Shown: positions 15,596 to 38,151 of the stretch, in pieces
Layout of the letters: each line of letters starts with the position of its first letter
Numbering within the stretch: position 1 is the stretch's first letter
Source: Actinomycetes bacterium
GTDB lineage: Bacteria > Actinomycetota > CALGFH01
Length of the DNA: 46,965 nt
Assembly: GCA_036000965.1 (NCBI GenBank)
Contig: DASYUT010000323.1
Span: 1 to 46,965, forward strand
Reading direction: 5' to 3'
The notes under the pieces: model-generated
Seen by the model: the letters and a program-made list of their open reading frames with translations, nothing else
The model's database searches: none
What the model was told of the DNA's origin: nothing
Program-made: the position numbers and the translations under genes

Positions 15596-15635
15596 GGCGA
15601 GCCCCCGGCTCGCAGGCTCGCAGGCTCGCAGGCAA

Positions 15636-15710
15636 GGACGAACGACGGAAGAGGCAAGGACGAACGACACAACAGGCAAGGACGAACGACAACAGGTGAG
15701 GACGAACGAC
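15636..15710. repeat. Four phased direct repeats of GGACGAACGAC
   Basis: Exact 11-base copies lie at 15636-15646, 15658-15668, 15680-15690 and 15700-15710. The periods are 22, 22 and 20 bases, about two DNA helical turns, and the wider unit is approximately aggcaaggacgaacgacana. They are followed by two related gaggtcgtatcg/gaggtccgtatcg elements, and preceded by three copies of ctcgcagg. This is an iteron- or operator-like array upstream of the zinc-ribbon gene and the ligase operon. Confidence 0.8.
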
Positions 15711-15748
15711 AGAAGAGGTCGTATCGCTCGACAGAGAGGTCCGTATCG

Positions 15749-16268: not shown

Positions 16269-17666
16269 TTGCCTACCGACCTGGAACGTTTCCTCGCCCA
16301 GGACGGGCGTGACGACGCGATCGCCGAGGTGCGTCGACGGATCGACGCCGACGGCATCACCTACGTCTACTACCAGTTCGTGTCGGTGACCGGCCGGATC
16401 GTCGGCAAGGGCATCCCTACCCCGCACTGGGAGGCGATCGCCCGTAGGGGCTTCCAGCTCGTCTACGGAGCCACCGCGAACCTGTTCATCGACCGGCACG
16501 GCGACTACATCGGCTACGGGCCTGAGGCTCGCGAGCTGGTCGGCCTGCCCGACGTCGACACCTTCCAGGCGCTGCCCTGGGACCCGAAGGTGGCCCGGGT
16601 GTTCTGCACCCTGTTCCGGGGCCGCGAGGAGGAGGTCGACGGCGGCGCCTACCTCACCTCCGACTGTCGCGGCAACTTGAGGCGCATCCACGACCAGTTC
16701 GAGCAGGACACCGGCCTGCACCTGCGGGCCGGCTGCGAGCCCGAGATGATGTGGCTCAAGCTCGGCCCCGACGGCAAGCCGAGCGTCGAGGGCATGACCA
16801 AGCCCTACTGCTACCACATCGACCAGTTCTCCGAGCTGCAGCCGATCATCCACAAGGTCGTCGAGTACGGCCAGAAGCTGGGGCTGGACATGATCCAGGG
16901 CGACCACGAGGACGCCCCCGGGCAGCTCGAGCTCAACTTCATGTTCGACCGGGCCGAGCTCACCGCCGACCGGCTCACCACCTACCGCCAGATCTGCCGG
17001 CAGGTCGGCCGCGAGACGGGCACCTTCGCCTGCTTCATGCCCAAGCCGTTCATGGGCGTGTCGGCCAACGGCTGCCACCACAACATCTCGCTGTGGCAGG
17101 GCGACGAGAACATGTTCCTGCCCGACGGCGACAACCCGCGCCTGCCGGGCAAGACCGGGCTGAACGCGATCGGCGGGGTGCTCGAGCACCTGCGCGGCCT
17201 GTCGGCGATCACCTCCCCGACGGTGAACTCCTACCGCCGCTTCGCCGACGCCGGCTTCTGGGCCCCGATCTTCGCCGACTGGGGCTTCCAGAACCGCACC
17301 ACGGCCCTGCGGATCAGCGCGCCGGGCCGGTTCGAGTTCCGCTCTGTCGACTCCGCGGTCAACCCCTACCTGTCGTTCGCCGGGCTGCTGGTGAGCATGA
17401 AGGACGGCATCGAGCGCAACCTCGACCCCGGCCCGCCCGAGGAGCGCAACATCTACGAGGCGATCCAGGCAGGCAAGCCGGTGCAGCGGATCCCGTCCAC
17501 GCTCGGCGAGGCGCTGGACGCGCTCGAGGGCGACCAGATCGTCAAGTCAGCGCTGCCCGGCGAGATGTACAGGGTCTTCATGCACTACAAGCGCGACGAG
17601 TGGGAGCGCTTCATCGCGACGGTCTCGGACTGGGACGTGAAGGAGTACCTCGACATCCTTCCGTGA
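16269..17666 (+). CDS. Glutamine synthetase family ligase, probable gamma-glutamyl-alkylamide synthetase (GmaS/GlnT-like)
   Basis: The 465-residue protein has the glutamine synthetase catalytic barrel. Metal and substrate residues are visible: Glu157 and Glu159 in GCEPEMMW, Glu214 and Glu221 in DHEDAPGQLELN, His270/271 in NGCHHNIS, and the RFEFRS Arg/Glu pair near the end of the barrel. Such enzymes join ammonia or an amine to the gamma-carboxyl of glutamate with ATP. The neighbouring three glutamate-synthase-like subunits and the distant sox-type operon make methylamine (giving gamma-glutamylmethylamide) the likeliest substrate, but the sequence alone does not fix the amine. Its N-terminus (ITYVYYQFVSVTGRIVGKG) is not a standard GlnA start. 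A TTG at 16269 with GAGAGGGG upstream is chosen. It is first in a plus-strand operon running to 27012. Confidence 0.85.
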   Translation: MPTDLERFLAQDGRDDAIAEVRRRIDADGITYVYYQFVSVTGRIVGKGIPTPHWEAIARRGFQLVYGATANLFIDRHGDYIGYGPEARELVGLPDVDTFQALPWDPKVARVFCTLFRGREEEVDGGAYLTSDCRGNLRRIHDQFEQDTGLHLRAGCEPEMMWLKLGPDGKPSVEGMTKPYCYHIDQFSELQPIIHKVVEYGQKLGLDMIQGDHEDAPGQLELNFMFDRAELTADRLTTYRQICRQVGRETGTFACFMPKPFMGVSANGCHHNISLWQGDENMFLPDGDNPRLPGKTGLNAIGGVLEHLRGLSAITSPTVNSYRRFADAGFWAPIFADWGFQNRTTALRISAPGRFEFRSVDSAVNPYLSFAGLLVSMKDGIERNLDPGPPEERNIYEAIQAGKPVQRIPSTLGEALDALEGDQIVKSALPGEMYRVFMHYKRDEWERFIATVSDWDVKEYLDILP

Positions 17667-17736: not shown

Positions 17737-18666
17737 ATGTGCGGTATCGCCGGAATCATCCACAGGGACGGCCCCGCGGACATCGGCCAGGAGATGACCC
17801 GCATGCTCCAGGCGATGAAGCACCGGGGGCCCGACTCCAGCGGCTTCGCGCTGTACGGTCCGCCCGGCGACGGGCTGGTCATGCGCCTCAAGCTCGCCGA
17901 CGCCAACACCCCGCGCGACTTCGGCTTCGCCGAGCGGCTCGAGCAGCACCGCATGGAGCTGGACGCGCGGCTGGGCAAGATCGGCGCCACCGTCGACCGC
18001 GTCGAGGGGGCCACCGAGTACGCCTACCGGGTGCGGCTGAGCTACGACGGCGACCTCAAGGCGCTCACCGACTACGTCGAGGACATCCCCGACTGTGAGG
18101 TGCTCTCCCTCGGCAGCTCCCTCGAGATCGTCAAGGACCTCGGGGACGCCGAGACGGTCGCCCGCCAGTACGGCCTCGAGTCGTTCCGCGGCACCCACGC
18201 CATCGGCCACGCGCGCATGGCCACCGAGTCCGACGTGGACATCTCCGGCGCCCACCCGTACTGGGCCTACCCGTTCTCCGACATCGCCGTCGTCCACAAC
18301 GGCCAGCTCACCAACTACCACCAGTGGCGGCGCCGCCTCGAGCGGCTCGGCCACCGCTTCCAGTCCGAGTGCGACTCCGAGATCATCGCGGTCTACATCG
18401 CCGAGAGGCGCGCCGAGGGCCTGTCGCTGGAGACGGCGATGAAGCAGAGCCTCGAGGACTTCGACGGGGTCTTCACCTACGCGGTGGTCACCGGCGACAG
18501 CCTCGGGGTGGCCAAGGACGAGATGGCGGCCAAGCCGCTGGTGCTCTACGAGACCCCGGCCCTGGTCGTCCTGGCCTCCGAGGAGGTCGCGATCCGGGCC
18601 GTCGTCGACCGCGAGATCGACACGGTCGACCCCTACGAGAGCGAGGTGCTGGTGTGGAGCAGGTAG
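17737..18666 (+). CDS. glxB: Class II glutamine amidotransferase subunit, GlxB/MgsA type
   Basis: The 309-residue N-terminal-nucleophile amidotransferase begins MCGIAGI; after removal of Met, Cys2 is the catalytic nucleophile. Other family features: LQAMKHRGPDSSGFALYG, the substrate-binding loop ARMATESDVDISGAHPYW, VVHNGQLTNY and the SECDSEIIAVYIAERR segment. It is the free-standing counterpart of the glutaminase domain of glutamate synthase and pairs with GlxC and GlxD. In methylotrophs this trio is N-methylglutamate synthase (MgsABC); in rhizobia it is named GlxBCD. In the N-methylglutamate pathway it would handle gamma-glutamylmethylamide. Its stop overlaps the chosen glxC start by 13 bases. 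Confidence 0.9.
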   Translation: MCGIAGIIHRDGPADIGQEMTRMLQAMKHRGPDSSGFALYGPPGDGLVMRLKLADANTPRDFGFAERLEQHRMELDARLGKIGATVDRVEGATEYAYRVRLSYDGDLKALTDYVEDIPDCEVLSLGSSLEIVKDLGDAETVARQYGLESFRGTHAIGHARMATESDVDISGAHPYWAYPFSDIAVVHNGQLTNYHQWRRRLERLGHRFQSECDSEIIAVYIAERRAEGLSLETAMKQSLEDFDGVFTYAVVTGDSLGVAKDEMAAKPLVLYETPALVVLASEEVAIRAVVDREIDTVDPYESEVLVWSR

Positions 18667-19562
18667 GGGGCTTGGGGGCTCGGGCAGGCGGACCCGAGGG
18701 CGGTGGCCCCCAGACGAGCCAGGCCGGTGGCCCCCAGATGAGCCAGGCCGGTGGCCCCCAGATGAGCCACCAGCCTGGTGGCCCGAGCGCGCGGCGCATC
18801 ACCTACGACGCGCGGGGGCTGGTCGAGCCGGTCGCCGAGGTGCCCAGGATCGCCAAGATCGAGGGTGACCGGGCCGAGTTCGACGCGGCCGAGCTGACCG
18901 CCCGCCGGATCAACCTCGAGCTGCGCTGGCTCCTGTACGAGCAGGGCGTGCGCGACGTGGTGGTGCGCAACCCGGGCGCCAAGCACTCCATCGGCGTGGG
19001 CATCCTGCAGCGCTGCACCCTCCGGTTCGAGGGCAGCTTCGGCTACTTCGGGCTCGGCCTCATCGACGGGCCGGAGGTGACCGTGACCGGCCGGGTCGGC
19101 TGGTCGGTGTGCGAGAACATGATGTCGGGCGTGGTCGTGATCGAGAAGAACGCGGGCTCGCTCACCGGAGCGGCCCTGCGTGGCGGCGACCTCGTGGTCA
19201 AAGGCAGCGTCGGGGCCCGCACCGGCATCGACCAGAAGGGCGGCACGATCGTGGTCGGCGGCGACGCCGGGCTCATGAGCGGCTTCATGATGCAGCGCGG
19301 CCGGCAGATCATCTGCGGCAGCGCCGGCCCGGGCCTCGGCGACTCGATGTACTCGGGATCGATCTACGTGGGCGGCAAGGTCGCCTCGCTCGGCGTCGAC
19401 TGCGTGGAGGCCGAGCTCGGGCCGGCCGACGAGGAGCTGCTCGACCGCAAGCTCAGCGCGTACGGGGTCGACCGGCCCGACTCGTTCCGCAAGTTCGTCT
19501 GTGGCAAGAAGCTCTGGAACTACGACAGCCTCGAGCCCAGCGAGCGCAAGCTCGTCCTGTAG
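18654..19562 (+). CDS. glxC: Glutamate-synthase C-terminal-domain-like subunit, GlxC/MgsB type
   Basis: The 302-residue protein is a right-handed beta-helix like the gxgxg (GltB C-terminal) domain of glutamate synthase. It has regularly spaced Gly/Val coils: GGDLVVKGSVGARTGIDQ, GGTIVVGGDAGLMSGFMMQ and GSIYVGGKVASLGVDC. This structural domain carries no chemistry of its own and docks the glutaminase and FMN subunits. The GTG at 18654 overlaps glxB and keeps translation coupled; an ATG at 18738 or 18762 would remove the unusual Gly/Pro/Gln-rich head. That head is encoded by three 24-base tandem repeats (18702-18773) giving QAGGPQMS-type octamers, and it is not part of the conserved domain, which begins near ARRITYDARGL. 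Confidence 0.87.
   Translation: MEQVGGLGARAGGPEGGGPQTSQAGGPQMSQAGGPQMSHQPGGPSARRITYDARGLVEPVAEVPRIAKIEGDRAEFDAAELTARRINLELRWLLYEQGVRDVVVRNPGAKHSIGVGILQRCTLRFEGSFGYFGLGLIDGPEVTVTGRVGWSVCENMMSGVVVIEKNAGSLTGAALRGGDLVVKGSVGARTGIDQKGGTIVVGGDAGLMSGFMMQRGRQIICGSAGPGLGDSMYSGSIYVGGKVASLGVDCVEAELGPADEELLDRKLSAYGVDRPDSFRKFVCGKKLWNYDSLEPSERKLVL
18702..18773. repeat. Three 24-base tandem repeats at the 5' end of glxC
   Basis: Units at 18702-18725, 18726-18749 and 18750-18773 are nearly identical and in phase with the frame. They encode repeated GGPQMSQA octapeptides. Confidence 0.85.
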
Positions 19563-19618: not shown

Positions 19619-21013
19619 ATGGAAGACGCGGTTTCCAGAAAGAACGTCCTCGGCAGGAGCAGCGTCTTCACGCCCGACGTCATCAACGACATCCACGTGA
19701 AGGCCGAGATCGGGCGCTACCGGATGCGCGGGTTCTCGATCTTCAAGCCGATCCCGAGCTGGGACCAGCTCATGTTCCTGCCCGGGACGCTCACCCGGTT
19801 CGTGATCGAGGGCTACCGCGAGAAGTGCGAGACCAGGACCGTGCTGGGGGCCCGCTTCGCCAGGAAGCCCCTGGAGCTCGACATCCCCGTCTACATCACC
19901 GGGATGAGCTTTGGCGCGCTGTCGCTCGAGGCCAAGATGGCGCTGGCCAAGGGCGCCTCGATGGCCGGGACGGCGACCTGCTCGGGCGAGGGCGGCATGA
20001 TCCCGCCTGAGCGGGACCTCTCCACCAAGTGGTACTACCAGATCATCCAGAGCCGCTACGGGTTCAACCCGCACCACCTGATGCTCGCCGACGGGGTCGA
20101 GTTCTTCATCGGCCAGGGCTGCAAGGTCGGCCTCGGCGGCCACCTCATGGGCCAGAAGGTCACCGAGCAGGTCGCCGAGATGCGCTCGCTGCCAGCCGGT
20201 ATCGACCAGCGCAGCCCCGCCCGCCACCCCGACTGGCTCGGTCCCGACGACCTGTCGCTCAAGGTCCAGGAGATCCGCGAGGCCACCGACTACCAGGTCC
20301 CCATCCAGCTCAAGCTCGGCGCCGCGCGCGTCTACGACGACGTGCGCATGGCCGCCAAGTGCGGGCCGGACATCATCTACCTGGACGGCGCCGAGGGCGG
20401 GACCGGGGCCGGCCCCCACATCGCCACCGAGGAGACCGGCATCCCGCTGATGGCCGCGATCCCCGAGGCCCGCCGCGCCCTCGAGGACGTCGGCCTGGTC
20501 GACGAGATCGACCTGGTGGTGGCAGGCGGCATCCGCAACGGCGGCGACATCGCCAAGTGCCTGGCGCTCGGGGCCAAGGCGGTCGCCATCGGCCACAGCG
20601 CGCTGATCGCGCTCAACTGCAACAAGGAGATCCCCGGGGTCACCGACTACGAGGGCACCATCGGCGTCAAGGCCGGCCACTGCTACCACTGCCATACCGG
20701 ACGGTGCCCGGTCGGCATCACCACCCAGGACCCCGAGCTGCGCCGGCGCCTGGTCGTCGACGAGGCCGCCGAGCGCGTCTACAACTTCCTGCACACCCTC
20801 ACCCTCGAGGTGCAGATGCTCGCGCGCGCCTGCGGCAAGACCAACGTGCACAGCCTCGAGCCGGAGGACCTCTGCGCCCTCACCGTCGAGGCGGCCGCCA
20901 TGGCCAAGGTGCCGCTGGCCGGCACCACCTACGTCCCGGGCGTGACCGAGGAGCGGACCCTCGAGGAGATCCGCACCCTGCTCGCCAAGCACCTCAACGA
21001 GCCCGGCAGCTAG
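19619..21013 (+). CDS. glxD: FMN/iron-sulfur glutamate synthase-like subunit, GlxD/MgsC type
   Basis: The 464-residue subunit matches the FMN-binding synthase domain of glutamate synthase: ITGMSFGALSLEAKMALAKGA, the phosphate loops DGAEGGTGAGP and VVAGGIRNGGDIAKCLALGA, and an iron-sulfur motif with Cys355, Cys358 and Cys363 (CYHCHTGRCP), which fits a 3Fe-4S cluster. It should carry the reductive step that moves the amide or methylamide group onto the 2-oxo acid or glutamate. The C-terminus EAAAMAKVPLAGTTYVPG is the normal family ending. GGAG lies about 12 bases before the ATG. Its 3' end is repeated almost exactly inside the next gene and, decayed, at 40748. GlxB, GlxC and GlxD are expected to form one cytoplasmic complex. 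Confidence 0.9.
   Translation: MEDAVSRKNVLGRSSVFTPDVINDIHVKAEIGRYRMRGFSIFKPIPSWDQLMFLPGTLTRFVIEGYREKCETRTVLGARFARKPLELDIPVYITGMSFGALSLEAKMALAKGASMAGTATCSGEGGMIPPERDLSTKWYYQIIQSRYGFNPHHLMLADGVEFFIGQGCKVGLGGHLMGQKVTEQVAEMRSLPAGIDQRSPARHPDWLGPDDLSLKVQEIREATDYQVPIQLKLGAARVYDDVRMAAKCGPDIIYLDGAEGGTGAGPHIATEETGIPLMAAIPEARRALEDVGLVDEIDLVVAGGIRNGGDIAKCLALGAKAVAIGHSALIALNCNKEIPGVTDYEGTIGVKAGHCYHCHTGRCPVGITTQDPELRRRLVVDEAAERVYNFLHTLTLEVQMLARACGKTNVHSLEPEDLCALTVEAAAMAKVPLAGTTYVPGVTEERTLEEIRTLLAKHLNEPGS
20888..20928. repeat. 41-base repeat, copy 1 (glxD 3' end)
   Basis: This segment recurs at 21063-21103 with one mismatch in 41, and as a shorter, changed copy at 40748-40787. In glxD it encodes EAAAMAKVPLAGTT, the conserved C-terminal tail. 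Confidence 0.85.
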
Positions 21014-21026
21014 AGGGGTCCTGACA

Positions 21027-21518
21027 GTGGCTGAGACGGCACCCGACGAGACGGCACCCGACGAGGCGGCCGCCATGGCCAAGGCGCCGCTGGCCGGCAC
21101 CACGCGGCGCATCGGGATCGACGCCGAGGAGCTGGCCGGGCAGAGCTTCCCCTACCAGCACGACATCTCGCTGGTGAAGGACATCGACCTGATGGCCGCC
21201 ACGCCCGGCCCCGACCTCAACTGGCTCGAGGACGTCGAGCTGCTGAGCGAGGACGGGGTGCCCGCGGTCTTCGACCGCTACTCCAACTCGTTCCTGAAGA
21301 TCCACTTCCCGATCCCGGCCGGCCGGGAGGACGAGATCGCCCGCAAGGTGCTCATCGCCCATCTGCAGGCGGGCAACTCCTACGGCATCCAGCTCAAGCG
21401 GCGGCACGCCAAGTTCCCCCAGCCGGCGCTCGGGCCCTGGGTGGAAGGGTCGGAGACGGTGGGAGAGCACTGGCAGCCGCCCAGGCTGGAGGGCTGGGAG
21501 GCCCCCACAGGTCACTAG
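21027..21518 (+). CDS. Unknown 163-residue protein inside the glx operon
   Basis: I do not recognise this protein. It starts at a GTG 14 bases after the glxD stop with GAGGGG upstream. The first ~27 residues hold a duplicated ETAPD and then AAAMAKAPLAGTT, a near-copy of the glxD C-terminus. The remaining ~135 residues look like an ordinary soluble globular domain: SFPYQHDISLVKDIDLM, NWLEDVELLSEDGVPAVFDR, FLKIHFPIPAGREDEIARKV, AGNSYGIQLKRRHAKF. There is no signal peptide, membrane helix or Cys cluster. Its tight position between the FMN subunit and the FAD oxidoreductase suggests an accessory subunit or small enzyme of the same pathway. The 3' end runs into a degenerate repeat tract, which may have lengthened its C-terminus. 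Confidence 0.6.
   Translation: MAETAPDETAPDEAAAMAKAPLAGTTRRIGIDAEELAGQSFPYQHDISLVKDIDLMAATPGPDLNWLEDVELLSEDGVPAVFDRYSNSFLKIHFPIPAGREDEIARKVLIAHLQAGNSYGIQLKRRHAKFPQPALGPWVEGSETVGEHWQPPRLEGWEAPTGH
21063..21103. repeat. 41-base repeat, copy 2 (5' end of the unknown gene)
   Basis: It is identical to 20888-20928 in 40 of 41 bases, the single change being gtg to gcg. The copy is in the same reading phase and adds a glxD-like tail sequence to the N-terminus of the next protein. Confidence 0.85.
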
Positions 21519-21690
21519 GTCACCAGGAGGGCCGGGGAAAGGCCCACAAAGAGGCTGGAGGCCCCACAAGGTCACGAGAGGGCACAAGGTCACTGGCAGG
21601 GCTGGGAGGCCCCGCAGGTCGCTAGGAGGGCCGGGGAGGCCCCACAGGTCACTGGAGAGGGCTTTGGGAGGCCCACACAGGTCCTAAAGG
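21483..21690. repeat. Degenerate repeat tract rich in AGGTCAC before the FAD oxidoreductase gene
   Basis: About five imperfect units of the form gctgggaggccccacaggtcact fill the end of the unknown gene and the 182-base gap 21519-21700. The core aggtcac or aggtcgc occurs at least five times. The tract ends just before AAAGGAGG of the next gene. No separate gene is seen in the gap. Confidence 0.7.
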
Positions 21691-21700
21691 AGGTACCAGC

Positions 21701-23035
21701 GTGTCGCTGCCGGAGGGCGCGCGGTTCGTGGTCATCGGGGCCGGCGTGCACGGGCTGTCGACGGCCTGGCACCTCGGCGAGCGGCTCAGGGCCCGCGGCC
21801 TCGGGTCGGGCCGGGACGTGGTCGTGCTCGACAAGGCCGGGATCGGCGCGGGCGCGTCCGGGATCGCCTGCGGGGTGATCCGCAACAACTACTTCCAGCC
21901 GGCCATGCGCGCGCTGATGGCCCACTCGGTCTCGGTGTGGGAGTCCGACCCGGAGGCGTTCTCGTTCCACCCGGTCGGCTACATGCAGGTCGCCCCGGAG
22001 GTGATGCACGCCGACGTCGCGCAGATCTACGCGGAGCAGCAGGCGATCGGCTACCCTTCGACCCTCATCGAAGGGAAGCGGGACTGTGCGCTGTACATGA
22101 AGAACCTGTTCCACGACTGGCAGGCCAAGGGCATCACCTGCGTCCTGCACGAGAAGCGCGGCGGCTACGCCAACAACCTGGCGTCGCTTCGGGGCCTTGC
22201 CGCCAAGGCCGAGGCGACCGGGGTGCGGGTCTTCCCGGGGGCCCCGGTGACCGGGGTGCGGACCGCCGGCGCCGCGGTGACCGCGGTCGAGACCGGGCAG
22301 GGCACCATCCGCTGCGAGCAGCTCGTGGTGGCCGCCGGGCCCTGGGTGCGCGACCTCTGGAGCATGCTTGGCCTGCCCGACACGGTGCGCGTCCTCGGCC
22401 GCGACGGGCAGGTCTACGACCGGCCCGCTTGGACCTACTGGTCGCTGCAGGAGGGGACGCTCAAGGTCGACCCGAGCTTCCTCACCGACAACGACGGCAA
22501 CCTGCCGCCGGTCGTGCACGTCGACACCGACGCCCCGCTGTACGACGACGCCGACGGCTCGCTCGTCACCGACCGGCTCTGGGGCATCTACTACAAGCCC
22601 GACTTCTCGTTCGGCGGCGTGCAGGGCGGGGCCATGCCGTTCGTGGTGGACCGCCCGGCCGACGACGTGGCCGTCGACCCCTACGGCCCGGCCAGCCCCG
22701 ACTTCGTGGTCGGCCGGGAGTTCGCCCGCATGTGGACCTCGGCGCTGGCCCACTGCCACAAACGGTTCGAGGGCAAGGGCCACCTGTTCTCCGAGGAGCC
22801 GTCGGGTGGCATCGGCGCGTTCACGCCCGACAGCTTCCCGGTCTTCGACGTGTTCGCCGGCAACGCCTACGTCATCGCCGACTCCAACCACGGCTACAAG
22901 ATGATCGGGGTCGGCGCGCTGGTCGCCCGCGAGCTGCTCGGCGAGCGGCAGGAGCTGCTCGAGCCGTTCCGGTTCTCCCGCTACGCCGAGGGGCGCCTGC
23001 ACCCCGTCAGCCACTCACCGTTCCCCTGGAGCTGA
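21701..23035 (+). CDS. DAO-family FAD oxidoreductase (sarcosine/dimethylglycine oxidase-like)
   Basis: The 444-residue flavoenzyme has the N-terminal dinucleotide fold VVIGAGVHGLSTAWHL (10-25, GxGxxG) and the loop GIGAGASGIACGVIRNNYFQPAMRAL, which resembles the flavin-contact segment of sarcosine oxidase beta subunits. AAGPWVRDL and FPVFDVFAGNAYVIADSNHGYKMIGVG lie at the usual C-terminal FAD positions. It should oxidise the C-N bond of a secondary or tertiary amino acid (N-methyl amine, dimethylglycine, sarcosine or similar). It has no folate-binding GcvT domain of its own; one is encoded two genes downstream. AAAGGAGG lies seven bases before the GTG at 21701 and fixes the start. Confidence 0.85.
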   Translation: MSLPEGARFVVIGAGVHGLSTAWHLGERLRARGLGSGRDVVVLDKAGIGAGASGIACGVIRNNYFQPAMRALMAHSVSVWESDPEAFSFHPVGYMQVAPEVMHADVAQIYAEQQAIGYPSTLIEGKRDCALYMKNLFHDWQAKGITCVLHEKRGGYANNLASLRGLAAKAEATGVRVFPGAPVTGVRTAGAAVTAVETGQGTIRCEQLVVAAGPWVRDLWSMLGLPDTVRVLGRDGQVYDRPAWTYWSLQEGTLKVDPSFLTDNDGNLPPVVHVDTDAPLYDDADGSLVTDRLWGIYYKPDFSFGGVQGGAMPFVVDRPADDVAVDPYGPASPDFVVGREFARMWTSALAHCHKRFEGKGHLFSEEPSGGIGAFTPDSFPVFDVFAGNAYVIADSNHGYKMIGVGALVARELLGERQELLEPFRFSRYAEGRLHPVSHSPFPWS

Positions 23036-23094: not shown

Positions 23095-24504
23095 GTGCCG
23101 GACACCGAGAAGATGTGGGGCAGCGAACCGTTCTGGGGCCTCGGGTATGACTGGGACCCCGACTGGGTCCTGACCGACAGGCAGAAGGAGCTGCGAGAGC
23201 AGCTCATCGAGCTGTGCCAGCGAGAGATGCGGGCGAACGCCAAGCGCTTCGACGACGGCTTGGAGTTCCCCAGGCGCAACCTCGAGATTCTGGGCGAGCA
23301 CGGCTTCCTGGCCCTGACCGTCCCCGAGGAGTACGGAGGCCTGGGCGAGAACCATGCCGCCTACGCGATGGTGTGCGAGACGATCGCCCGCTATGGCTGC
23401 GCCTCCACCGCCATGTGCTACGTGATGCATATCGGCGCGGTGAACTGCATCATGCTCCGCCCCACCGAGTACCTGATCGACAAGTACATCCGGCCGCTTG
23501 GCACCGGCAAGATCGGCACCCTGTCCTACTCCGACCCGGAGACCGGCAGCCACTTCTGGTACCCGATCTCGTCGGGGGCCGAGCGAGTCAACGGCGGCTT
23601 CAAGGTCCGCAAGAAGGCGTCCTGGACGACCTCGGCCGGGTTCGCCGACTTCTACGTGGTGCAGACCACCAGCCCCGACTTCACCGGCTACGACGACCTG
23701 TCGGTCTTCGTGGTGGACGCGGCCGACGCCCAGGCCCGGCCCGAGCTGTGGGACGCGCTCGGTCTGCGCGGCAACCAGTCCGGCTCGCTCAACGTCGACG
23801 GGCTGGTCCCCGGCGAGCAGGTGGTCGGGCCGGTTGGCGACGGCGCCGCCTCCAACGACGAGTCGGTCGACCCCTGGTTCCTGATCGGGTCGTCGTCGGT
23901 GTGGAACGGCATCTCGCTGGGCGCGATCGACATCGCCAAGCGCCACACCACCCGCAAGCGGCACGTGGACGTCGGTCTGCGCGTGGCCGACTACCCGACC
24001 ATCCAGGACTACGTGGGCGAGGCGCTGATCGACACCAACGCGTCGCGCCTGTTCGTCTACTCGGTCGCCCGGGCCCTCGACAGGGCCACCGACGACAACA
24101 CCAGGGTGCTCGGCCCGGGCGAGACCGCCCGCGCCGACTTCCTGCACTGGTGCTGGCAGGTCAAGTTCGTGGCGGCCAAGAACGTCGCCCACGTCACCGA
24201 CAAGATGCTCCACGCCTGCGGCGGGTCGGGCTACAAGCGGGACATGGAGCTGGAGCGCTACCTGCGCGACGGCAAGGCCGGCTGGGTCATGGGGCCGACC
24301 AACGAGGTCCTGCGCCAGTTCGTGGGCAAGGCCGTGCTGCTCGGCTTCGACTCCCTCGACTACTGGAACCAGCACGTCAACGAGCGGGCCATCCAGAACG
24401 AGACCAAGAAGCTCGACCCGGCGGGCAAGCGCGCCCTGGCCGAGAAGCTGCTCGCCGAGGCGGAGAAGGACGAGGCCAAGGAGCGGCAGCCCGCGGGAAG
24501 GTGA
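23095..24504 (+). CDS. Acyl-CoA dehydrogenase-fold flavoprotein lacking the usual catalytic Glu
   Basis: The 469-residue protein has the acyl-CoA dehydrogenase layout: helical N-domain (RNLEILGEHGFLALTVPEEYGGLGENHAAY), beta domain (GTLSYSDPETGSHFWYPISS) and C-terminal four-helix domain (HACGGSGYKRDMELERYLRDGK). In medium-chain-type enzymes the catalytic base sits in a YEGTSEI-like motif; the matching segment here is VMGPTNEV with Gly400 at that place. It may therefore be a dehydrogenase with its base elsewhere (as in isovaleryl-CoA enzymes) or a flavin-dependent monooxygenase of the DszC/nitroalkane-oxidase branch. The extreme C-terminus is a charged helix (KRALAEKLLAEAEKDEAKE). AAGGAGGA precedes the GTG at 23095. 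The substrate is unknown; the neighbours are amine and folate enzymes, not fatty-acid genes. Confidence 0.82.
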   Translation: MPDTEKMWGSEPFWGLGYDWDPDWVLTDRQKELREQLIELCQREMRANAKRFDDGLEFPRRNLEILGEHGFLALTVPEEYGGLGENHAAYAMVCETIARYGCASTAMCYVMHIGAVNCIMLRPTEYLIDKYIRPLGTGKIGTLSYSDPETGSHFWYPISSGAERVNGGFKVRKKASWTTSAGFADFYVVQTTSPDFTGYDDLSVFVVDAADAQARPELWDALGLRGNQSGSLNVDGLVPGEQVVGPVGDGAASNDESVDPWFLIGSSSVWNGISLGAIDIAKRHTTRKRHVDVGLRVADYPTIQDYVGEALIDTNASRLFVYSVARALDRATDDNTRVLGPGETARADFLHWCWQVKFVAAKNVAHVTDKMLHACGGSGYKRDMELERYLRDGKAGWVMGPTNEVLRQFVGKAVLLGFDSLDYWNQHVNERAIQNETKKLDPAGKRALAEKLLAEAEKDEAKERQPAGR

Positions 24505-24564: not shown

Positions 24565-27012
24565 ATGACCGTCCTGGACCGGCCCCGGCTGATCCTCCCC
24601 GGGCTCGCGCCCGTCGAACCCGGGGTGGAGCGCTACTGGGTGAAGGGGGGCGGCGCCACCGTGCTCCGCCTCGAAGGCGGCGACGAGCTGACGGTGATCG
24701 ACTGGCACGGCCGCCAGCCCGGCGAGCTGACCTTCCTGCGACCGGGCCGGGGCGAGGGGCGGTCCGCGTCCGTGCGGCAGGGCCGGGGCGACGGGCGGTC
24801 CGGGGGGCTCAAGGGCAGCCTCCCGGTTGGCGGGTCCGGGGGGCTCAAGGGCAGCTCCCCGGTGGACGGGTCCGCGGCCGTGGGCGCCCGGGCCGACGCG
24901 CCCGCGACCGGCCTCGCGGACCTGGTCCGCAGTGACGCCGAGGACGCTGCGGCCGTGCTGGCCGCGCTGGCCGGCATGGGGCTCGACCCGGGCCAGGCAC
25001 GCGCGGTCGCGGTGTTCGGCCCCTGGTCGGAGCCTGGCGAGTCGGTCACCTTCACCGCCACCGACGAGGTCGTCTGCGTGGCGGTCGCGCCCGGCGGCCC
25101 CATGGCCGTGGACGAGCAGAACCCGCCGTCGGACCTGCGCCTGGTCGTGCGCCGGGCCCGGCCCCGGGTCTCCGACGAGGTCGAGCCGCCACCGCCGCTG
25201 GCCGCGCCCCTGGTCGACCTGCGGGTCGACCGGGCGACCGCCTCGGCCTACGAGGTCAAGGCGGGGGAGTACATCCAGATCATCGACGTGCAGGGCCGGC
25301 AGTGCTCGGACTTCCTCGCCTTCGACCACCAGCGGCTCGACGCGGGCGTCGAGCGCGGCCTGGACGGCACCACCACCCGCACCCTCATGGGCAACGCCTA
25401 CCCCGGGCCCGGGCTGTACTCCAAGTTCTTCGACCAGGACATGCAGCCGCTGGTCGAGGTCGTGCGCGACACCGTCGGCCGGCACGACACCTTCAACCTG
25501 GCCTGCACGGCCAAGTACTACGAGGACATGGGCTACCCCGGCCACGTCAACTGCACCGACAACTTCAATCAGCAGCTCGACCGGTACGGCATCGCCGCCC
25601 GCAAGGGGTGGCCGGCGATCAACTTCTTCTACAACACCGGGATCGACGCCAACAACGCGATCTACTTCGACGAGCCGTGGTCGCGGCCGGGCGACTACGT
25701 GCTGCTGCGGGCGCTCACCGACCTGGTCTGCGCCTCGTCGGCCTGCCCCGACGACATCGACCCGGTGAACGGGTGGGACCCGACCGAGATCCATGTCCGC
25801 ACCTACCCGGCCGAACGCACCTTCTCGAAGGCGGTGGCACGCCGAGTGACCCCTGATGCCGAGCCCGTCCTCACCCGCGAGACCGCCTTCCACCCGCGTG
25901 TCTCGGCGCTGACCAGGCGCCTGGTCGAGTACCGGGGCTACTGGCTGCCGAGCAGCTTCTCCTCCCAGGGATCGCTCGAGGAGTACTGGGCCTGCCGGGA
26001 GCGCGCGGTGGTGATGGACCTGTCGCCGCTGCGCAAGTTCGAGGTCACCGGCCCGGACGCCGAGGCGCTCATGCAGGCGACCGTGACCCGCAACGTCCGA
26101 CGCCTGGCCGTCGGCCAGGTCGTCTACACCGCGATGTGCAACGACACCGGCGGGATGATCGACGACGCCACGATCTTCCGGCTCGGGCAGGACAACTTCC
26201 GCTTCGTCGGGGGCGACGAGCACGACGGGGTCTGGCTGCGCGAGCAGGCCAGGCGCCGCGGCCTGCGGGTCTGGGTGAAGAACTCCACCGACCAGCTCCA
26301 CAACCTGGCCGTGCAGGGCCCAGCAAGCCGGGACCTGCTGCGCGAGATCGTCTGGACCCCGCCCGCCCAGCCCCGGTTCGAGGAGCTGACCTGGTTCCGG
26401 TTCGCGATCGGCCGGATCGGCGACTACAACGGCATCCCGATCCTGGTCTCGCGCACCGGCTACTCCGGCGAGCTCGGCTACGAGCTGTGGTGCCACCCGC
26501 GCGACGGGCTCGCGCTGTGGGACGCCGTGTGGGCCGCGGGCCAGCCGCACGGCATGCTCCCGCTCGGCCTGGACGCCCTGGATGTGCTCCGGATCGAGGC
26601 CGGGCTCATCTTCGCCGGCTACGAGTTCGACGACCAGGTCGACCCGTTCGAGGCCGGCATCGGCTTCACCGTCCCGCCGACCAAGGAGGACGACTTCGTC
26701 GGCAAGGACGCCCTGGACAAGCGCCGGGCCCACCCGCAGCGGGTGCTGGTCGGCCTGGAGCTCGAGGGCAACGAGCCAGCCGGGCACGGCGACTGCGTGC
26801 ACGCCGGCCGCCCCCAGGTCGGGGTGGTCACCAGCGGCACCCGCTCACCGACCCTGCGCAAGAACATCGCCTTGTGCCGCATGGCGGTCGAGTACTCGAT
26901 GGTCGGCACCGAGGTCGAGGTCGGCAAGCTCGACGGCTACCAGAAGCGCATCCCGGCAACGGTCGTGCCCTTCCCCTTCTACGACCCGAAGAAGGAGCGA
27001 CCGCGGTCCTGA
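24565..27012 (+). CDS. Double DUF1989 - GcvT-type aminomethyltransferase fusion
   Basis: The 815-residue protein has three parts. Residues ~20-200 look like a diverged DUF1989 (urea-amidolyase-associated) domain, with GGGATVLRLEGGDELTVIDW matching AGEYIQIIDVQGRQCSDFLA of the second copy. The first copy is interrupted by a Gly/Ser-rich insert made of 12-residue repeats (79-102). Residues ~225-430 are a canonical DUF1989 domain (RTLMGNAYPGPGLYSKFFDQD, HVNCTDNFNQQL with its Cys). Residues ~450-805 are a GcvT/DMGDH-type folate-binding aminomethyltransferase (VVMDLSPLRKFEVTGPDAEAL, MCNDTGGMIDDATIFRL, SRTGYSGELGYELW, GLDALDVLRIEAGL). It should accept a methylene or methyl-amine group onto tetrahydrofolate, perhaps for the FAD enzyme upstream. 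The ATG at 24565 has AGGAG upstream. It is the last gene of the operon. Confidence 0.85.
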   Translation: MTVLDRPRLILPGLAPVEPGVERYWVKGGGATVLRLEGGDELTVIDWHGRQPGELTFLRPGRGEGRSASVRQGRGDGRSGGLKGSLPVGGSGGLKGSSPVDGSAAVGARADAPATGLADLVRSDAEDAAAVLAALAGMGLDPGQARAVAVFGPWSEPGESVTFTATDEVVCVAVAPGGPMAVDEQNPPSDLRLVVRRARPRVSDEVEPPPPLAAPLVDLRVDRATASAYEVKAGEYIQIIDVQGRQCSDFLAFDHQRLDAGVERGLDGTTTRTLMGNAYPGPGLYSKFFDQDMQPLVEVVRDTVGRHDTFNLACTAKYYEDMGYPGHVNCTDNFNQQLDRYGIAARKGWPAINFFYNTGIDANNAIYFDEPWSRPGDYVLLRALTDLVCASSACPDDIDPVNGWDPTEIHVRTYPAERTFSKAVARRVTPDAEPVLTRETAFHPRVSALTRRLVEYRGYWLPSSFSSQGSLEEYWACRERAVVMDLSPLRKFEVTGPDAEALMQATVTRNVRRLAVGQVVYTAMCNDTGGMIDDATIFRLGQDNFRFVGGDEHDGVWLREQARRRGLRVWVKNSTDQLHNLAVQGPASRDLLREIVWTPPAQPRFEELTWFRFAIGRIGDYNGIPILVSRTGYSGELGYELWCHPRDGLALWDAVWAAGQPHGMLPLGLDALDVLRIEAGLIFAGYEFDDQVDPFEAGIGFTVPPTKEDDFVGKDALDKRRAHPQRVLVGLELEGNEPAGHGDCVHAGRPQVGVVTSGTRSPTLRKNIALCRMAVEYSMVGTEVEVGKLDGYQKRIPATVVPFPFYDPKKERPRS
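24799..24870. repeat. Two 36-base in-frame repeats in the DUF1989-GcvT gene
   Basis: Units 24799-24834 and 24835-24870 encode SGGLKGSLPVGG and SGGLKGSSPVDG. They form a linker-like insert inside the first DUF1989-like domain; a related 21-base motif precedes them. Confidence 0.8.
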
Positions 27013-27204: not shown

Positions 27205-27669
27205 TCAGCCGTCCGGATGGGACGACAGGTGGGCGGCGATGAGCTCGTAGGCGGCCGGGTGCAGGGTGCCGTCGGCACCGAGCGGGACATCGTCGGCGGC
27301 GAGCGGGGCACCGTCGGCACCGAGCGGGGCACCGTCGGCGGCGAGCTGGGCGAGCACGACGTCGAGGGCGGCCGGCGACCAGGGCGCCTCGATCTCGACC
27401 CGCTCGGCGCCGACCGCGGTCCGGCGGACCTGCGCCTTGTAGGTCAGCAGGACCGCGCCGTCGACGGCGCGGACCCGCAGCGCGATGCTGCGCGTGCCCA
27501 GGGCCCGGTCGGGCGTGTCCACGTAGGTGTCGCGGATCGACTGGGCCGGCCGGCCGATGAGCCGGAACCCGGGCAGCGAGCCCAGCCCGGCGAGCCGTTC
27601 CCGGACCGCCAGTGGTGCCGGGGAGCAGACCACCAGCGCCGCCTCGACCTCCCGGGCTTGCTGAGTCAA
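27205..27669 (-). CDS. Short CYTH-domain-like protein with a repetitive C-terminus
   Basis: The 154-residue protein begins with the CYTH hallmark EVEAAL (ExExK-like, but the Lys is replaced) and continues with RLIGRPAQSIRDTYVDTPDRAL, SIALRVRA and VLLTYKAQV, the first strands of a triphosphate tunnel metalloenzyme. The domain is cut short: after about 115 residues it passes into four ADGAPLG-type heptads (encoded at about 27265-27340) and stops. It is probably a fragment or a non-catalytic relic rather than an active thiamine-triphosphatase or adenylate cyclase. The TTG at 27669 is preceded by GGAGGAGG at five bases; the frame is open to an ATG at 27813, through tandem repeats. It is convergent with the amine operon; no clear terminator lies in 27013-27204, which is GC-rich with gccgccggcgacgcc repeated. 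Confidence 0.55.
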   Translation of the reverse strand: MTQQAREVEAALVVCSPAPLAVRERLAGLGSLPGFRLIGRPAQSIRDTYVDTPDRALGTRSIALRVRAVDGAVLLTYKAQVRRTAVGAERVEIEAPWSPAALDVVLAQLAADGAPLGADGAPLAADDVPLGADGTLHPAAYELIAAHLSSHPDG

Positions 27670-27699: not shown

Positions 27700-27783
27700 G
27701 TCACCCACGACACCCTGGCGGTTGCCCACGACACCCTGGCGGTTACCCAGGACACCCCGGCGGTTACCCACGACACCCCGGCG
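27700..27783. repeat. Four 21-base tandem repeats upstream of the CYTH-like gene
   Basis: Units of the form gttacccacgacaccccggcg lie at 27700-27720, 27721-27741, 27742-27762 and 27763-27783 with few changes. They fill the gap between the lipoprotein stop and the CYTH-like ribosome binding site. Confidence 0.85.
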
Positions 27784-27793
27784 GGCACGGTCT

Positions 27794-34050: not shown

Positions 34051-34790
34051 GGGTCAGATCTCCTTGTCCGTGAACCGGTCGCCCGTGAACCCGTGCCCGT
34101 GAACCCGTCGGGCTCGATGCCGAACTCGCGGCCAGCGTCCAGGATCGCGTCGAACAGGTACTGGCCGGAGGAGCGCTCGCAGTGGAGCAGGTAGGAACGG
34201 GTGCCACTGCTGCTTGCCTGAGGCGCGCCAGGCGGGGTTGCCTGAGGCGCGCCAGGCCTGTCGTCGCGCACGACGTCGGTGGCGACCTTCGCGACCGAGC
34301 TGCGGAAGGCCGTGCCGTCGGGCGTGACCCGGTCGGCGAAGTCGACCGAGCAGACCTTGGCCAGCAGGTGCGGTGCGTCGGCCCCGGTCAGGCGCATGAG
34401 CGCCCGCCCGTGGGTGAACAGCTCGACCACGCTCACCAGCCCAGGGTCGTGCTCGCCCGTTGCAGCGCGGGCAGCAACCGCCCGGACCCGCTCGGCCACC
34501 TCGGACTCGGTGCCCGGCGGGGCCAGCAGCAGCCATTCGTCCGGGCCGGAGCCGACCACCAGGGTGCCGTGCCGGTCGCGGCGGGACCGCCCATGGCCGA
34601 CGCCGAGGTGGCGGGCGACCGGCCCGTCGGGGTCGGCGCGGACCAGCACCTTGGCCAGGGGCGTGCAGTCGACGAGGCGCAGAGGCGCGGTCGAGCGCCG
34701 GCCCGACACCTCCCAGCCGTCCATCACCACGACCGGAGCGGCCGGGGCGACCGGGCTGCGGGCCACGGGGATTGTGAAGGCGTCAGCCAC
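34047..34790 (-). CDS. soxG: Sarcosine oxidase/N-methylglutamate dehydrogenase gamma subunit
   Basis: The 247-residue protein is the small GcvT-like gamma subunit of heterotetrameric sarcosine oxidase (SoxG) or NMGDH (MgdG/MgdD type). Supporting features are the pattern DCTPLAKVLVRADP, DEWLLLAPPG, VVELFTHGRALMRLTGADAPHLLAKVCSVDFAD (typical) and a C-terminal SYLLHCERSSGQYLFDAILDAGREFGIEPDGF. A Pro/Gln-rich insert (GAPQAT, GAPQAS) is encoded by a 24-base period repeat at 34214-34257. The GTG at 34790 overlaps the soxA stop by eight bases. Gamma subunits are non-catalytic and stabilise the complex. Confidence 0.85.
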   Translation of the reverse strand: MADAFTIPVARSPVAPAAPVVVMDGWEVSGRRSTAPLRLVDCTPLAKVLVRADPDGPVARHLGVGHGRSRRDRHGTLVVGSGPDEWLLLAPPGTESEVAERVRAVAARAATGEHDPGLVSVVELFTHGRALMRLTGADAPHLLAKVCSVDFADRVTPDGTAFRSSVAKVATDVVRDDRPGAPQATPPGAPQASSSGTRSYLLHCERSSGQYLFDAILDAGREFGIEPDGFTGTGSRATGSRTRRSDP

Positions 34791-37700
34791 GCAGGCGCAC
34801 CCCCTCGGGGTCGAAGTGGGCGTGATGGGCCTGGACGGTGGCTGGGACGCGCCGCCCGTCGGGCAGCTGCACGGTGACGACCGTGCCCGGCTCGGCCAGG
34901 TGGGGCGCGACGAACCCGAGGCAGATGGACCGTCCCAGGGTGGGCGACATCCGGCTCGACGTGACCCGCCCGACGATGGTGTTGCGGCCCTCCACGATCT
35001 GGCTCGCCTCGGCCGGCACCACCTGCCCGTCGACCGGCTGCAGCCCGACCAGCCGCATGTCGCCGTTGACGCGGCGCTGCCAGACCAGCTCGGGCTTGCC
35101 CAAGAAGTCGTCCTTGTCGAGCTTGATGGCCCAGTCGAGGCCGGCGCTGAACCCCTTGGTGAGCCCGTCGGTGTCCTGGCCGACGATGAAGTGGCCCTTC
35201 TCGAGGCGCATGATGCGCTGGGCCTCGACCCCGAACGCGGCCACGCCGAGGTCGGCGCCGCGCTCCATCAGGGTCTCCCAGACAGCCAGGCCGTAGGCGG
35301 CGGGCACGTGGATCTCGTAGCTCAGCTCGCCGGTGAAGCCGATGCGCCACATGAAGCAGTCGGGCACGCCGGCCACAGCGCCGAGCCGCACCCGCATGTA
35401 CGGGAATGCCTCTGGCGACAGGTCGACGCCCTCGGTCACCCGGCCGAGCAGCTCGCGGGACCTCGGCCCGGCCACGTTGATGCTGGCGTACGCGGTGGTG
35501 ACCGGCGTGACGTGCACCCGCCAGCCGGGGTGCTCGGTCTGCAGCCAGTTCTCGACCAGCTCCCAGACGGTGGCCGCGCCCGAGGAGGTGGTGGTCATCA
35601 GGTAGCGGTCGTGGTCGAGGTGGCCGGTGACCCCGTCGTCGGCGACCACGCCGTCCTCGGCGCACATCACCCCGTAGCGGACCGAGCCGATGTCGAGCTT
35701 CGACCACTTGTTGACGTAGAGGAGGTTGAGCAGCTTGGGCACGTCCGGGCCGCGCAGCTCGAGCTTGCCGAGCGGGGTGACGTCGATCAGGCCGACGTGC
35801 TCGCGCACGTTGCGGACCTCGGCGGCCGGGTCGCCGTAGCTGTCGGGCCGGATCCACTGGCCGGCCACGAGTGGCCGGGCCCCGTGTGCCTCGTGCCAGG
35901 GCTGCATGGGGGAGTAGCGGACCGGCTCGAACACCCGGCCGGCCAGCGCACCCAGGCTGATCGGCACATAGGGCGGGCGCCACACGGTCGTGCCGAGGTC
36001 GCCGATGGTGCTGCCGACGGCCTCGGCGAGCACCGCCACCGCGTTGACCGTCTCGAGCTTGCCCTGGGACGGGCCCATGGTAGCGGTGGTGAAGCGCTTG
36101 ACCAGCTCGATCGAGTCGTACCCCTCGCGGGCCGCCGCCACGATGTCCTTGGACGACACGTCCTCGCTGTAGTCCACCATGCCGTGGGTACTGGCCCGGA
36201 ACAGCGCCGGGTGGGACCGGACCGGCAGGCTCGGCACGGCCCCGTCGTCCGGACCACCCGAGGCCGCGTTGCCCGGAGCGCCCGAGGCCCCGTCACCTGA
36301 AGCAGTTGCCGCGTCGCCCGGAGCAGTGGACCCGTTTCCCCGGACGCGGGAGGCTCGGGCGGCGGCGGTGGTGCCGACCGCGCGGGCGTGCTCGAGGAGC
36401 TCGTCGAGGGTGCCGTCGCCGGCCAGCCCGCCGGCCACGAGCACCGAGTCGGGCAGCCCGCCGCCGGGCACGAAGCGGGCCGCCTCGGGCACGTAGACCG
36501 GGCGGTCGCCGGCCATGTTGAGCAGGGAGGTGGGCGCGGTCCAGCCGATCGAGGTGACCAGCAGGTCGCAGTCGACCTTGGTGCCGTCGGCGAGCACCAC
36601 CGCGCCGACGCCGCGCCCGCCGGTGGCCCGGCGGATGCCCTCGCCCTTGCGGGCGTCGACCACCCGGGCGACCTCGACACCGGCCCGTTCGAGGTCGGCC
36701 ACGGCGGCGTCGCCCTCGGCGTTGGCGGTGAGCACCACCGCCCGCTCGCCCGGCCGGACCGCGTAGAGGTTGACCAGCCTGCGCACGGCCGTGCCGAGCA
36801 TGACGCCGGGCAGGTCGTTGCCCTCGAACACGTAGGGCCGCTCGACCAGGCCGGGCGCGGCCACCAGGGTGGCCGCCCGGGCCTTGACGAGCCGCTCCTC
36901 CACGTGGGGGTCGGCCGGGCTGTGGCCGAGGCCCGGGCTGTGGCCGAGGGCCGGGTCGCGCTGCAGGATCGCGACCCAGTTGTCGTCGTAGCGGCCGGTG
37001 ACGGCCGAGTTGACCAGCACCTCGATGCCGGGCTGGCCGGCCACCGCCTCGCGCAGCTCGGCCAGGACGGCCAGCTCGCTGGCGCCGCCCCAGCGGAGGT
37101 GGCCGCCGAGCTCGTACTCCTCCTCGACCAGGATGACCAGGGCGCCGGCGCGGGCGGCGGCGAACGCGGCCGCCATGCCGGCCGGGCCGCCGCCGGCCAC
37201 GATCACGTCGGCGTGCGCGTAGCGCTTGTCGTAGTAGCCGTGGGCCGCGTCCGCGCGGACCCGCCCGCCGGTCGCGAAGCGGGCCAGGACCTTCTGGTAG
37301 GCGGGCCAGAGGCGCTGCGGCTTGATGAAGGTCTTGTAGTAGAAGCCGGCGGTGAGGAAGCGGCCCACGGCCTGGTTGGCCGCTTTCATGTCGAAGCGGA
37401 GCGACGGCCAGGTGTTCTGCGAGCTGACCGCCATGCCGGCCGCGAGCCGGCGGTGCGCGCCGCGCACGTTCGGCTCGTCGTCGACCTGGACCGTGCAGCC
37501 CGGGTCGAGGAAGTCCCCGGAGAGGATGCCGCGCGGGCGGTGGTACTTGAAGCTGCGCGAGAACACCCGCTCGCCCGAGGCGGCCAGCGCCGACACGATC
37601 GTGTCGCCCGCGAACCCGGTGCGCTGCCGGCCGTTCCAGGTGAAGTCGAGCGGCGCGTCCCGGTCGATCACCTCGCCCGGCTGGGGCCCGAGGCGCATGG

Positions 37701-38151
37701 AGGTACTGGCTTTCCTGGCCATCGCGCTCACGGCCGGCCTCCGGCACCCGCCGCAGTCCCGGCACCCTCGGCGGTCCCGGCACCCGCCGCGGTCCCGGCA
37801 CCCTCGGCGGTCCCGGTGCCATGGTTCGCCTGTTCGCCGCCGCCAGCGGCGGCGGGCGGGGCGGCAGCAGGCGGGGGGGGCGGCGGAGCGGGTCCGCGGC
37901 TGGTCCGCCGGCTCGGCCCGCCGGACCTCGCCGCTGACCGTGTGGCGCTCGACCACCAGGTACTTGCGGCAGCCGAACCGGTGGTACCAGTTCTCGCTCG
38001 TCCAGCCGGCCGGGTTGCGCTTGTCGTAGAGGTAGGAGCGCCACTCGGCGGGCGTGGCCGCGTTCGGGTCGGGCCGCGGCCTGCGCTCGCCGACGTAGGC
38101 GAACTCCGAGGAGTTGCGCGGCCCGCAGTGGGGGCAAGGGATGAGGATCAT
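34783..38151 (-). CDS. Fused sarcosine-oxidase-type delta (SoxD) and alpha (SoxA) subunits
   Basis: A single 1122-codon frame encodes two subunits that are normally separate. Residues 1-~80 are SoxD with its zinc ligands Cys6, Cys9, His57 and Cys61 (CPHC, YHRFGC). A ~60-residue linker follows, ending in four hexapeptides of RDRRGC type (112-136). SoxA then runs from about 144 to the end: the N-terminal ferredoxin-like part (PLDFTWNGRQRTGFAGDTIVSALAAS), a Rossmann fold with GGGPAG (320-325), and a C-terminal GcvT folate-binding domain (MRLEKGHFIVGQDTDGLTKGF). It would bind NAD and deliver methylene groups to THF. A GTG at 37731 has GGAGG six bases upstream and could start a separate alpha subunit. 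No stop separates the two. Another Gly/Ala/Ser-rich insert (about 36240-36330) lies between Rossmann and GcvT parts. Confidence 0.88.
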   Translation of the reverse strand: MILIPCPHCGPRNSSEFAYVGERRPRPDPNAATPAEWRSYLYDKRNPAGWTSENWYHRFGCRKYLVVERHTVSGEVRRAEPADQPRTRSAAPPACCRPARRRWRRRTGEPWHRDRRGCRDRGGCRDRRGCRDCGGCRRPAVSAMARKASTSMRLGPQPGEVIDRDAPLDFTWNGRQRTGFAGDTIVSALAASGERVFSRSFKYHRPRGILSGDFLDPGCTVQVDDEPNVRGAHRRLAAGMAVSSQNTWPSLRFDMKAANQAVGRFLTAGFYYKTFIKPQRLWPAYQKVLARFATGGRVRADAAHGYYDKRYAHADVIVAGGGPAGMAAAFAAARAGALVILVEEEYELGGHLRWGGASELAVLAELREAVAGQPGIEVLVNSAVTGRYDDNWVAILQRDPALGHSPGLGHSPADPHVEERLVKARAATLVAAPGLVERPYVFEGNDLPGVMLGTAVRRLVNLYAVRPGERAVVLTANAEGDAAVADLERAGVEVARVVDARKGEGIRRATGGRGVGAVVLADGTKVDCDLLVTSIGWTAPTSLLNMAGDRPVYVPEAARFVPGGGLPDSVLVAGGLAGDGTLDELLEHARAVGTTAAARASRVRGNGSTAPGDAATASGDGASGAPGNAASGGPDDGAVPSLPVRSHPALFRASTHGMVDYSEDVSSKDIVAAAREGYDSIELVKRFTTATMGPSQGKLETVNAVAVLAEAVGSTIGDLGTTVWRPPYVPISLGALAGRVFEPVRYSPMQPWHEAHGARPLVAGQWIRPDSYGDPAAEVRNVREHVGLIDVTPLGKLELRGPDVPKLLNLLYVNKWSKLDIGSVRYGVMCAEDGVVADDGVTGHLDHDRYLMTTTSSGAATVWELVENWLQTEHPGWRVHVTPVTTAYASINVAGPRSRELLGRVTEGVDLSPEAFPYMRVRLGAVAGVPDCFMWRIGFTGELSYEIHVPAAYGLAVWETLMERGADLGVAAFGVEAQRIMRLEKGHFIVGQDTDGLTKGFSAGLDWAIKLDKDDFLGKPELVWQRRVNGDMRLVGLQPVDGQVVPAEASQIVEGRNTIVGRVTSSRMSPTLGRSICLGFVAPHLAEPGTVVTVQLPDGRRVPATVQAHHAHFDPEGVRLRG
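37743..37814. repeat. Four 18-base in-frame repeats in the SoxD-SoxA linker
   Basis: Units at 37743-37760, 37761-37778, 37779-37796 and 37797-37814 are nearly identical. On the minus strand they encode RDRRGC, RDRGGC, RDRRGC and RDCGGC, so the linker gains four or more Cys residues. Confidence 0.85.

Follow-up and report, generated by a model that had tools for sequence, protein, structure and literature searches.

What is the small protein encoded directly behind glxD, and does it belong to the GlxBCD enzyme? The question is raised by a stretch of 46,965 nucleotides of actinomycete DNA, called the window throughout, in which an open reading frame designated X lies between glxD and a gene for an FAD oxidoreductase (Table 1). 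The sequence-only reading had described X as a 163-residue protein of no recognisable family, had taken its position to indicate a new subunit or accessory enzyme, and had remarked that its first residues copy the end of glxD.

Table 1. Features of the window around X, with the evidence for each assignment
Feature	Position	Strand	Evidence or remark
Glutamine-synthetase-like protein, divergent from GmaS	16269..17666	+	TIGR03105, 318.6 bits vs cut-off 469.6
glxB, class II glutamine amidotransferase subunit, N-terminus MCG	17737..18666	+	PF13522, PF13537
glxC, GXGXG subunit	18738..19562	+	PF01493 (scanned on longer frame from 18324), gene call
glxD, FMN-binding glutamate-synthase-like subunit, X-linked clade	19619..21013	+	PF01645, E 1.6e-92; clade placement
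X, small protein after glxD	21027..21518	+	ORF from GTG to TAG, 163 codons; or 147 aa from ATG 21075
46-nt copy of glxD 3' end (source 20883-20928)	21058..21103	+	96% identity, absent from homologues
DAO-fold FAD oxidoreductase	21701..23035	+	PF01266
Acyl-CoA-dehydrogenase-fold protein (flavoprotein), adjoins Tdm	23095-24504		
Tdm, TMAO demethylase, DUF1989 and GCV_T domains	24565..27012	+	NF053776, 1231.7 bits, cut-off 1100

An undescribed protein family behind glxD

The 163-codon frame between glxD and the FAD oxidoreductase gene was confirmed in strand and position; its first codon follows the glxD stop by 13 bases, and the oxidoreductase gene begins 182 bases 3' of X. Where translation starts is uncertain. 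GTG 21027 has a better Shine-Dalgarno-like stretch (AGAGGGG) than ATG 21075, which falls inside the copied piece of glxD and would give a product that fits the sizes of the homologues (126-156 aa). Because the latter start near ATG 21075, X may really have 147 residues, and the invariant residues named below are numbered from this codon.

X represents a real, conserved and undescribed protein family, and its presence sets one distinct clade of GlxBCD-type enzymes apart. We traced homologues in 27 genomes, which belong to Actinomycetota, Pseudomonadota and Acidobacteriota. Even sampling of 397 genomes from the window's phylum gave 11 of them, that of the window included, a species-representative collection added 14, and the phyla of the pseudomonadotal and acidobacteriotal members contributed another genome each; the family is thus conserved well outside the genome in which it was noticed. 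X lies directly 3' of glxD in all 27, and the gap mostly measures -14 to +36 bases, which suggests translational coupling. The order GS-glxB-glxC-glxD-X, with variable flanks, is kept in nearly every locus that extends far enough to reveal it; in one exception (L075) the synthetase gene has the reverse orientation. A weak match in genome G347 (E 0.0063) was dismissed as chance, its profile E value being 3.8 and no homologue of window genes lying nearby. One entry filed as viral (IMGVR_UViG_3300006306_000019, L032) carries the end of an X-clade GlxD followed by X and is probably cellular DNA within the viral collection.

The X family could not be assigned to anything known, in agreement with the sequence-only reading. 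When the window's protein and 24 homologues were scanned singly, neither Pfam (best E 0.0034, to LED_rpt, in 6 of the 25 members) nor NCBIfam (best 0.019) gave a convincing match, and a sequence profile search of the PDB with X gave none at all (best E 0.65). An AlphaFold2 model built from the 25 sequences reached a mean pLDDT of 84.9 and a pTM of 0.76. It predicts short irregular helices, strands at residues 57-59, 62-67 and 72-75, and longer helices at 85-98 and 103-111, and a Foldseek comparison of this model with 350,542 PDB chains yielded no significant similarity (best E 1.3, TM-score 0.17). Profile searches and structure prediction therefore revealed no known unrelated domain, and no named homologue turned up in searches of a plasmid collection and the literature. 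Invariant residues in the alignment include D47, N49, W50, L51, E52, D53, E59, V65, F66, D67, R68, N71, A89 and R90; no cysteine or histidine is among the invariant positions, and no cofactor motif was seen. The actinomycetotal proteins have about 35 additional C-terminal residues that are missing in those from Pseudomonadota and Acidobacteriota. Pairwise dN/dS values of 0.03-0.45 between homologues demonstrate that X is under purifying selection.

The copied end of glxD was borne out as well. The two segments listed in Table 1 form a direct repeat in the same codon frame, which is translated as EAAAMAKVPLAGTT in GlxD and as EAAAMAKAPLAGTT in the window's X; it makes up some 15 residues close to the N-terminus of X and is adjoined by a 15-nt tandem repeat. 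The copy was not seen in any other aligned homologue, is private to the window's genome and probably goes back to a recent duplication. A functional meaning is not supported, and we rejected a targeting signal because no homologue has the copy. Degenerate short repeats also fill intergenic gaps of the window (15607-15748, 18697-18769, 21497-21688, 27269-27351 and 27703-27784), five 22-nt copies of GGAGGCCCCACAGGTCAC lie 3' of X, and Tdm carries an in-frame 36-nt tandem repeat close to its N-terminus (24797-24874). The glxD copy and the 15-nt repeat within X may reflect the same repeat-forming tendency as that of the intergenic gaps.

Two clades of GlxD and the relation to known synthases

A survey of genome neighbourhoods for co-occurrence of X with glxBCD placed X only after glxD of one clade. 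The GlxD proteins found fall into two groups: those with 71-100% identity to the window's protein have X, and those with 50-58% have no X in the flanks searched. In even samples of the three phyla, all 15 genomes that possess a first-clade GlxD also possess X, against none of the 55 in which GlxD belongs to the second clade only. By phylum, these are 11/11 vs 0/11 in the window's phylum (where the first-clade GlxD of genome G095 is represented only by a fragment at the end of a contig), 2/2 vs 0/42 in Pseudomonadota and 2/2 vs 0/2 in Acidobacteriota. The corresponding Fisher value, for the first two phyla only, is 5e-14 and ignores kinship. On the GlxD tree a single change suffices to explain the X trait (branch length 0.91, support 100), and the statistics therefore describe one origin without loss in the sampled genomes, not many repeats. 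Both kinds of GlxD coexist in many genomes, in one locus (L068) within a few kilobases. Thirty-six positions are fixed differently between the clades, several of them in the conserved GEGG and GTGAG segments, and in the alignment the cysteine segment CYHCHTGRCP is nearly common to the X-less clade too. Between phyla, GlxD proteins are about 78% identical and X proteins about 35%.

The closest known counterparts are the mgsABC-gmaS operon of Paracoccus aminophilus plasmid pAMI6 (PMC4543880) and the glxBCD-glnT genes of SAR11 (PMC3160333). We read the P. aminophilus operon (L107) directly: genes for an amidotransferase, a GXGXG protein, an FMN synthase and a type III ligase follow in a row, and X is absent. 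The window's module resembles MgsABC plus GmaS in possessing all three core subunit types (PF13522/PF13537, PF01493, PF01645) in the same order, a type-III-like glutamine synthetase, and neighbours for the demethylation of methylated amines. It differs in that GlxD is only 50-58% identical and forms a separate clade, in that the synthetase is 32-38% identical to GmaS and remains below the TIGR03105 cut-off that P. aminophilus GmaS exceeds with 642.5 bits, and in that X follows glxD. P. aminophilus MgsC falls into the X-less clade, and the window's GlxD is a sister branch that does not group with it. The synthetase-like protein retains the residues common to all eight aligned synthetases; its loop before the conserved WAP is shortened. 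Since parts are shared and sequences diverge, we regard the module as related to GmaS-MgsABC but divergent from it, and as extended by one protein.

Two other comparisons suggest themselves. Like SoxD and SoxG of heterotetrameric sarcosine oxidase and N-methylglutamate dehydrogenase, X is small and encoded in an N-demethylation operon, but it lacks their profile matches, and true SoxD and SoxG are separately present in the window and its relatives; an identity with either was rejected, as PF04267 and PF04268 matched none of the 25 members. As in glutamate synthase, where GltD accompanies GltB, an extra protein stands beside a glutamate-synthase-type core, and the solved structures nearest to GlxD are GltB chains. 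GltD, however, has about 480 residues with Fe-S and FAD/NADPH domains, whereas X has 126-163 and matches none of these domains.

Pathway context and function

The neighbours of the X module serve the demethylation of trimethylamine compounds. In the window, the FAD oxidoreductase, the acyl-CoA-dehydrogenase-fold protein and Tdm follow 3' of the module, and SoxB, a SoxD-SoxA fusion, SoxG and formate-THF ligase are encoded further on, on the other strand. Other X loci contain Tmm (NF058570, above cut-off), SoxB, SoxD, SoxA, SoxG, class I amidotransferases and an ammonium transporter. The FAD oxidoreductase is a frequent partner of the module and keeps 61-65% identity as far away as Pseudomonadota. 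In the window's genome, which is 99.1% complete, neither another GlxD at E<=1e-100 nor a glutamine synthetase above the TIGR03105 cut-off was detected, and the canonical GmaS/MgsC pair is thus missing; a methylamine route through N-methylglutamate, if it exists there, would consequently have to use the X module.

Several details of these loci deserve mention in their own right. The SoxD-SoxA fusion is one protein of 1122 residues (34786-38151, minus strand), while relatives have separate SoxD genes. The flavoprotein of acyl-CoA-dehydrogenase fold stands beside Tdm in the window and in four further loci (L067, L070, L074, L075), and the five genomes with this arrangement (G000, G073, G084, G111, G221), two of them only 89% complete, have no Tmm above cut-off genome-wide; in G269 and G263, Tmm lies near Tdm and the stretch read contains no such flavoprotein. 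The flavoprotein may take the place of Tmm without being related to it. Genes for class I amidotransferases or Peptidase_C26-like proteins come directly or almost directly after X in five loci (L007, L012, L013, L069, L074) and possibly encode gamma-glutamyl hydrolases.

We consider it somewhat better than an even bet (roughly 0.55) that X is a fourth, non-catalytic subunit, or a dedicated assembly or docking factor, of a variant N-methylglutamate-synthase-like complex, GS-GlxBCD-X. In such a complex, the glutamine-synthetase-like enzyme would join an amine, most likely methylamine from trimethylamine or TMAO breakdown, to glutamate, GlxB would then release it, and GlxC and GlxD, with FMN and an Fe-S cluster, would put it on 2-oxoglutarate to form N-methylglutamate. 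The FAD oxidoreductase or a sarcosine-oxidase-type enzyme would next oxidise the methyl group, probably onto tetrahydrofolate. X itself would keep the synthetase-like protein attached to the GlxBCD core, or else make the core of GlxD complete, in a structural and not a catalytic role. That X is probably an overlooked extra part of the enzyme follows from its constant association with one GlxD branch in three phyla and never with the ordinary branch; that this part is non-catalytic is suggested by the missing invariant cysteine or histidine and the missing match to a catalytic fold. Of the original proposal, the new subunit or accessory protein is thus strongly supported by the obligate linkage to glxD, and an enzymatic role is not, as invariant Cys/His, cofactor motif and fold match are all absent. 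What we observe is linkage, co-inheritance, selection, gene order and pathway context; the binding, partner and role of X, and the substrate of its module, we infer. In-frame fused GlxD-X readings were taken from five loci (L010, L012, L013, L016, L073), and the natural read-through of the first, modelled as a fusion, gave a poor whole model (pLDDT 60.5, pTM 0.56), which counts neither for nor against binding. Several points weigh against a subunit: the linkage to GlxD goes back to a single evolutionary event, X diverges faster than a tightly buried subunit would be expected to, canonical MgsABC works without X, and the substrate is deduced from the neighbours only.

Other readings have to be set against this one. 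GS-GlxBCD-X could, as a tentative option, be a distinct amine-transferring synthase with a substrate of its own, other than methylamine, or with its own channelled mechanism, X bridging synthetase and core into one particle; in genomes that have the X module as well as canonical MgsABC, the two would then handle different amines. The small size, solubility, strict operon linkage and, relative to GlxD, faster divergence of X would also suit a PII-like pathway regulator that is not a constant subunit but responds to an intermediate, for instance 2-oxoglutarate or a gamma-glutamyl amide, by switching GlxBCD or the synthetase-like enzyme. We think this rather unlikely, as X resembles neither PII nor any other ligand-binding family or fold, and the fact that three phyla have strictly retained one X per GlxD suits a subunit at least equally well. 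Doubtful, too, is the view that X works on a pathway intermediate, for example a gamma-glutamyl amide, as an enzyme or carrier in its own right: the invariant polar residues (D47, N49, E52, D53, E59, D67, R68, N71, R90) and the possible gamma-glutamyl hydrolases near some X genes speak for it, but X resembles no enzyme fold or family, offers no invariant cysteine or histidine, and the same kind of pathway exists without it.

A maturation factor, which would act during insertion of the Fe-S cluster or FMN into the X-linked GlxD clade and then leave, would explain why X is tied to a GlxD sequence type and why several of the 36 clade-specific positions lie in the GEGG and GTGAG segments; it is nevertheless improbable, given that the X-less clade has nearly the same cysteine segment and needs no such factor. 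Finally, the glxD copy at its start might make X look like a chance open reading frame or a decayed glxD duplicate. This can be practically discounted and was rejected on the basis of the alignment and dN/dS, since the copy covers only about 15 residues; the other 135 or so experience purifying selection and are conserved across three phyla in proteins that lack the copied piece.

Consequences for surveys of methylated amine breakdown

The X module raises a directly testable question, namely why one glutamate-synthase-like branch needs an extra protein. Surveys of trimethylamine and methylamine breakdown rely on gmaS, mgsABC and tmm as markers. Bacteria that use the X module could be missed or misread in them, because X has no family model, the synthetase stays below the type III/GmaS cut-off and GlxD is distant from those known so far. 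For the methylamine steps, no candidate other than the X module was found in the window's genome.
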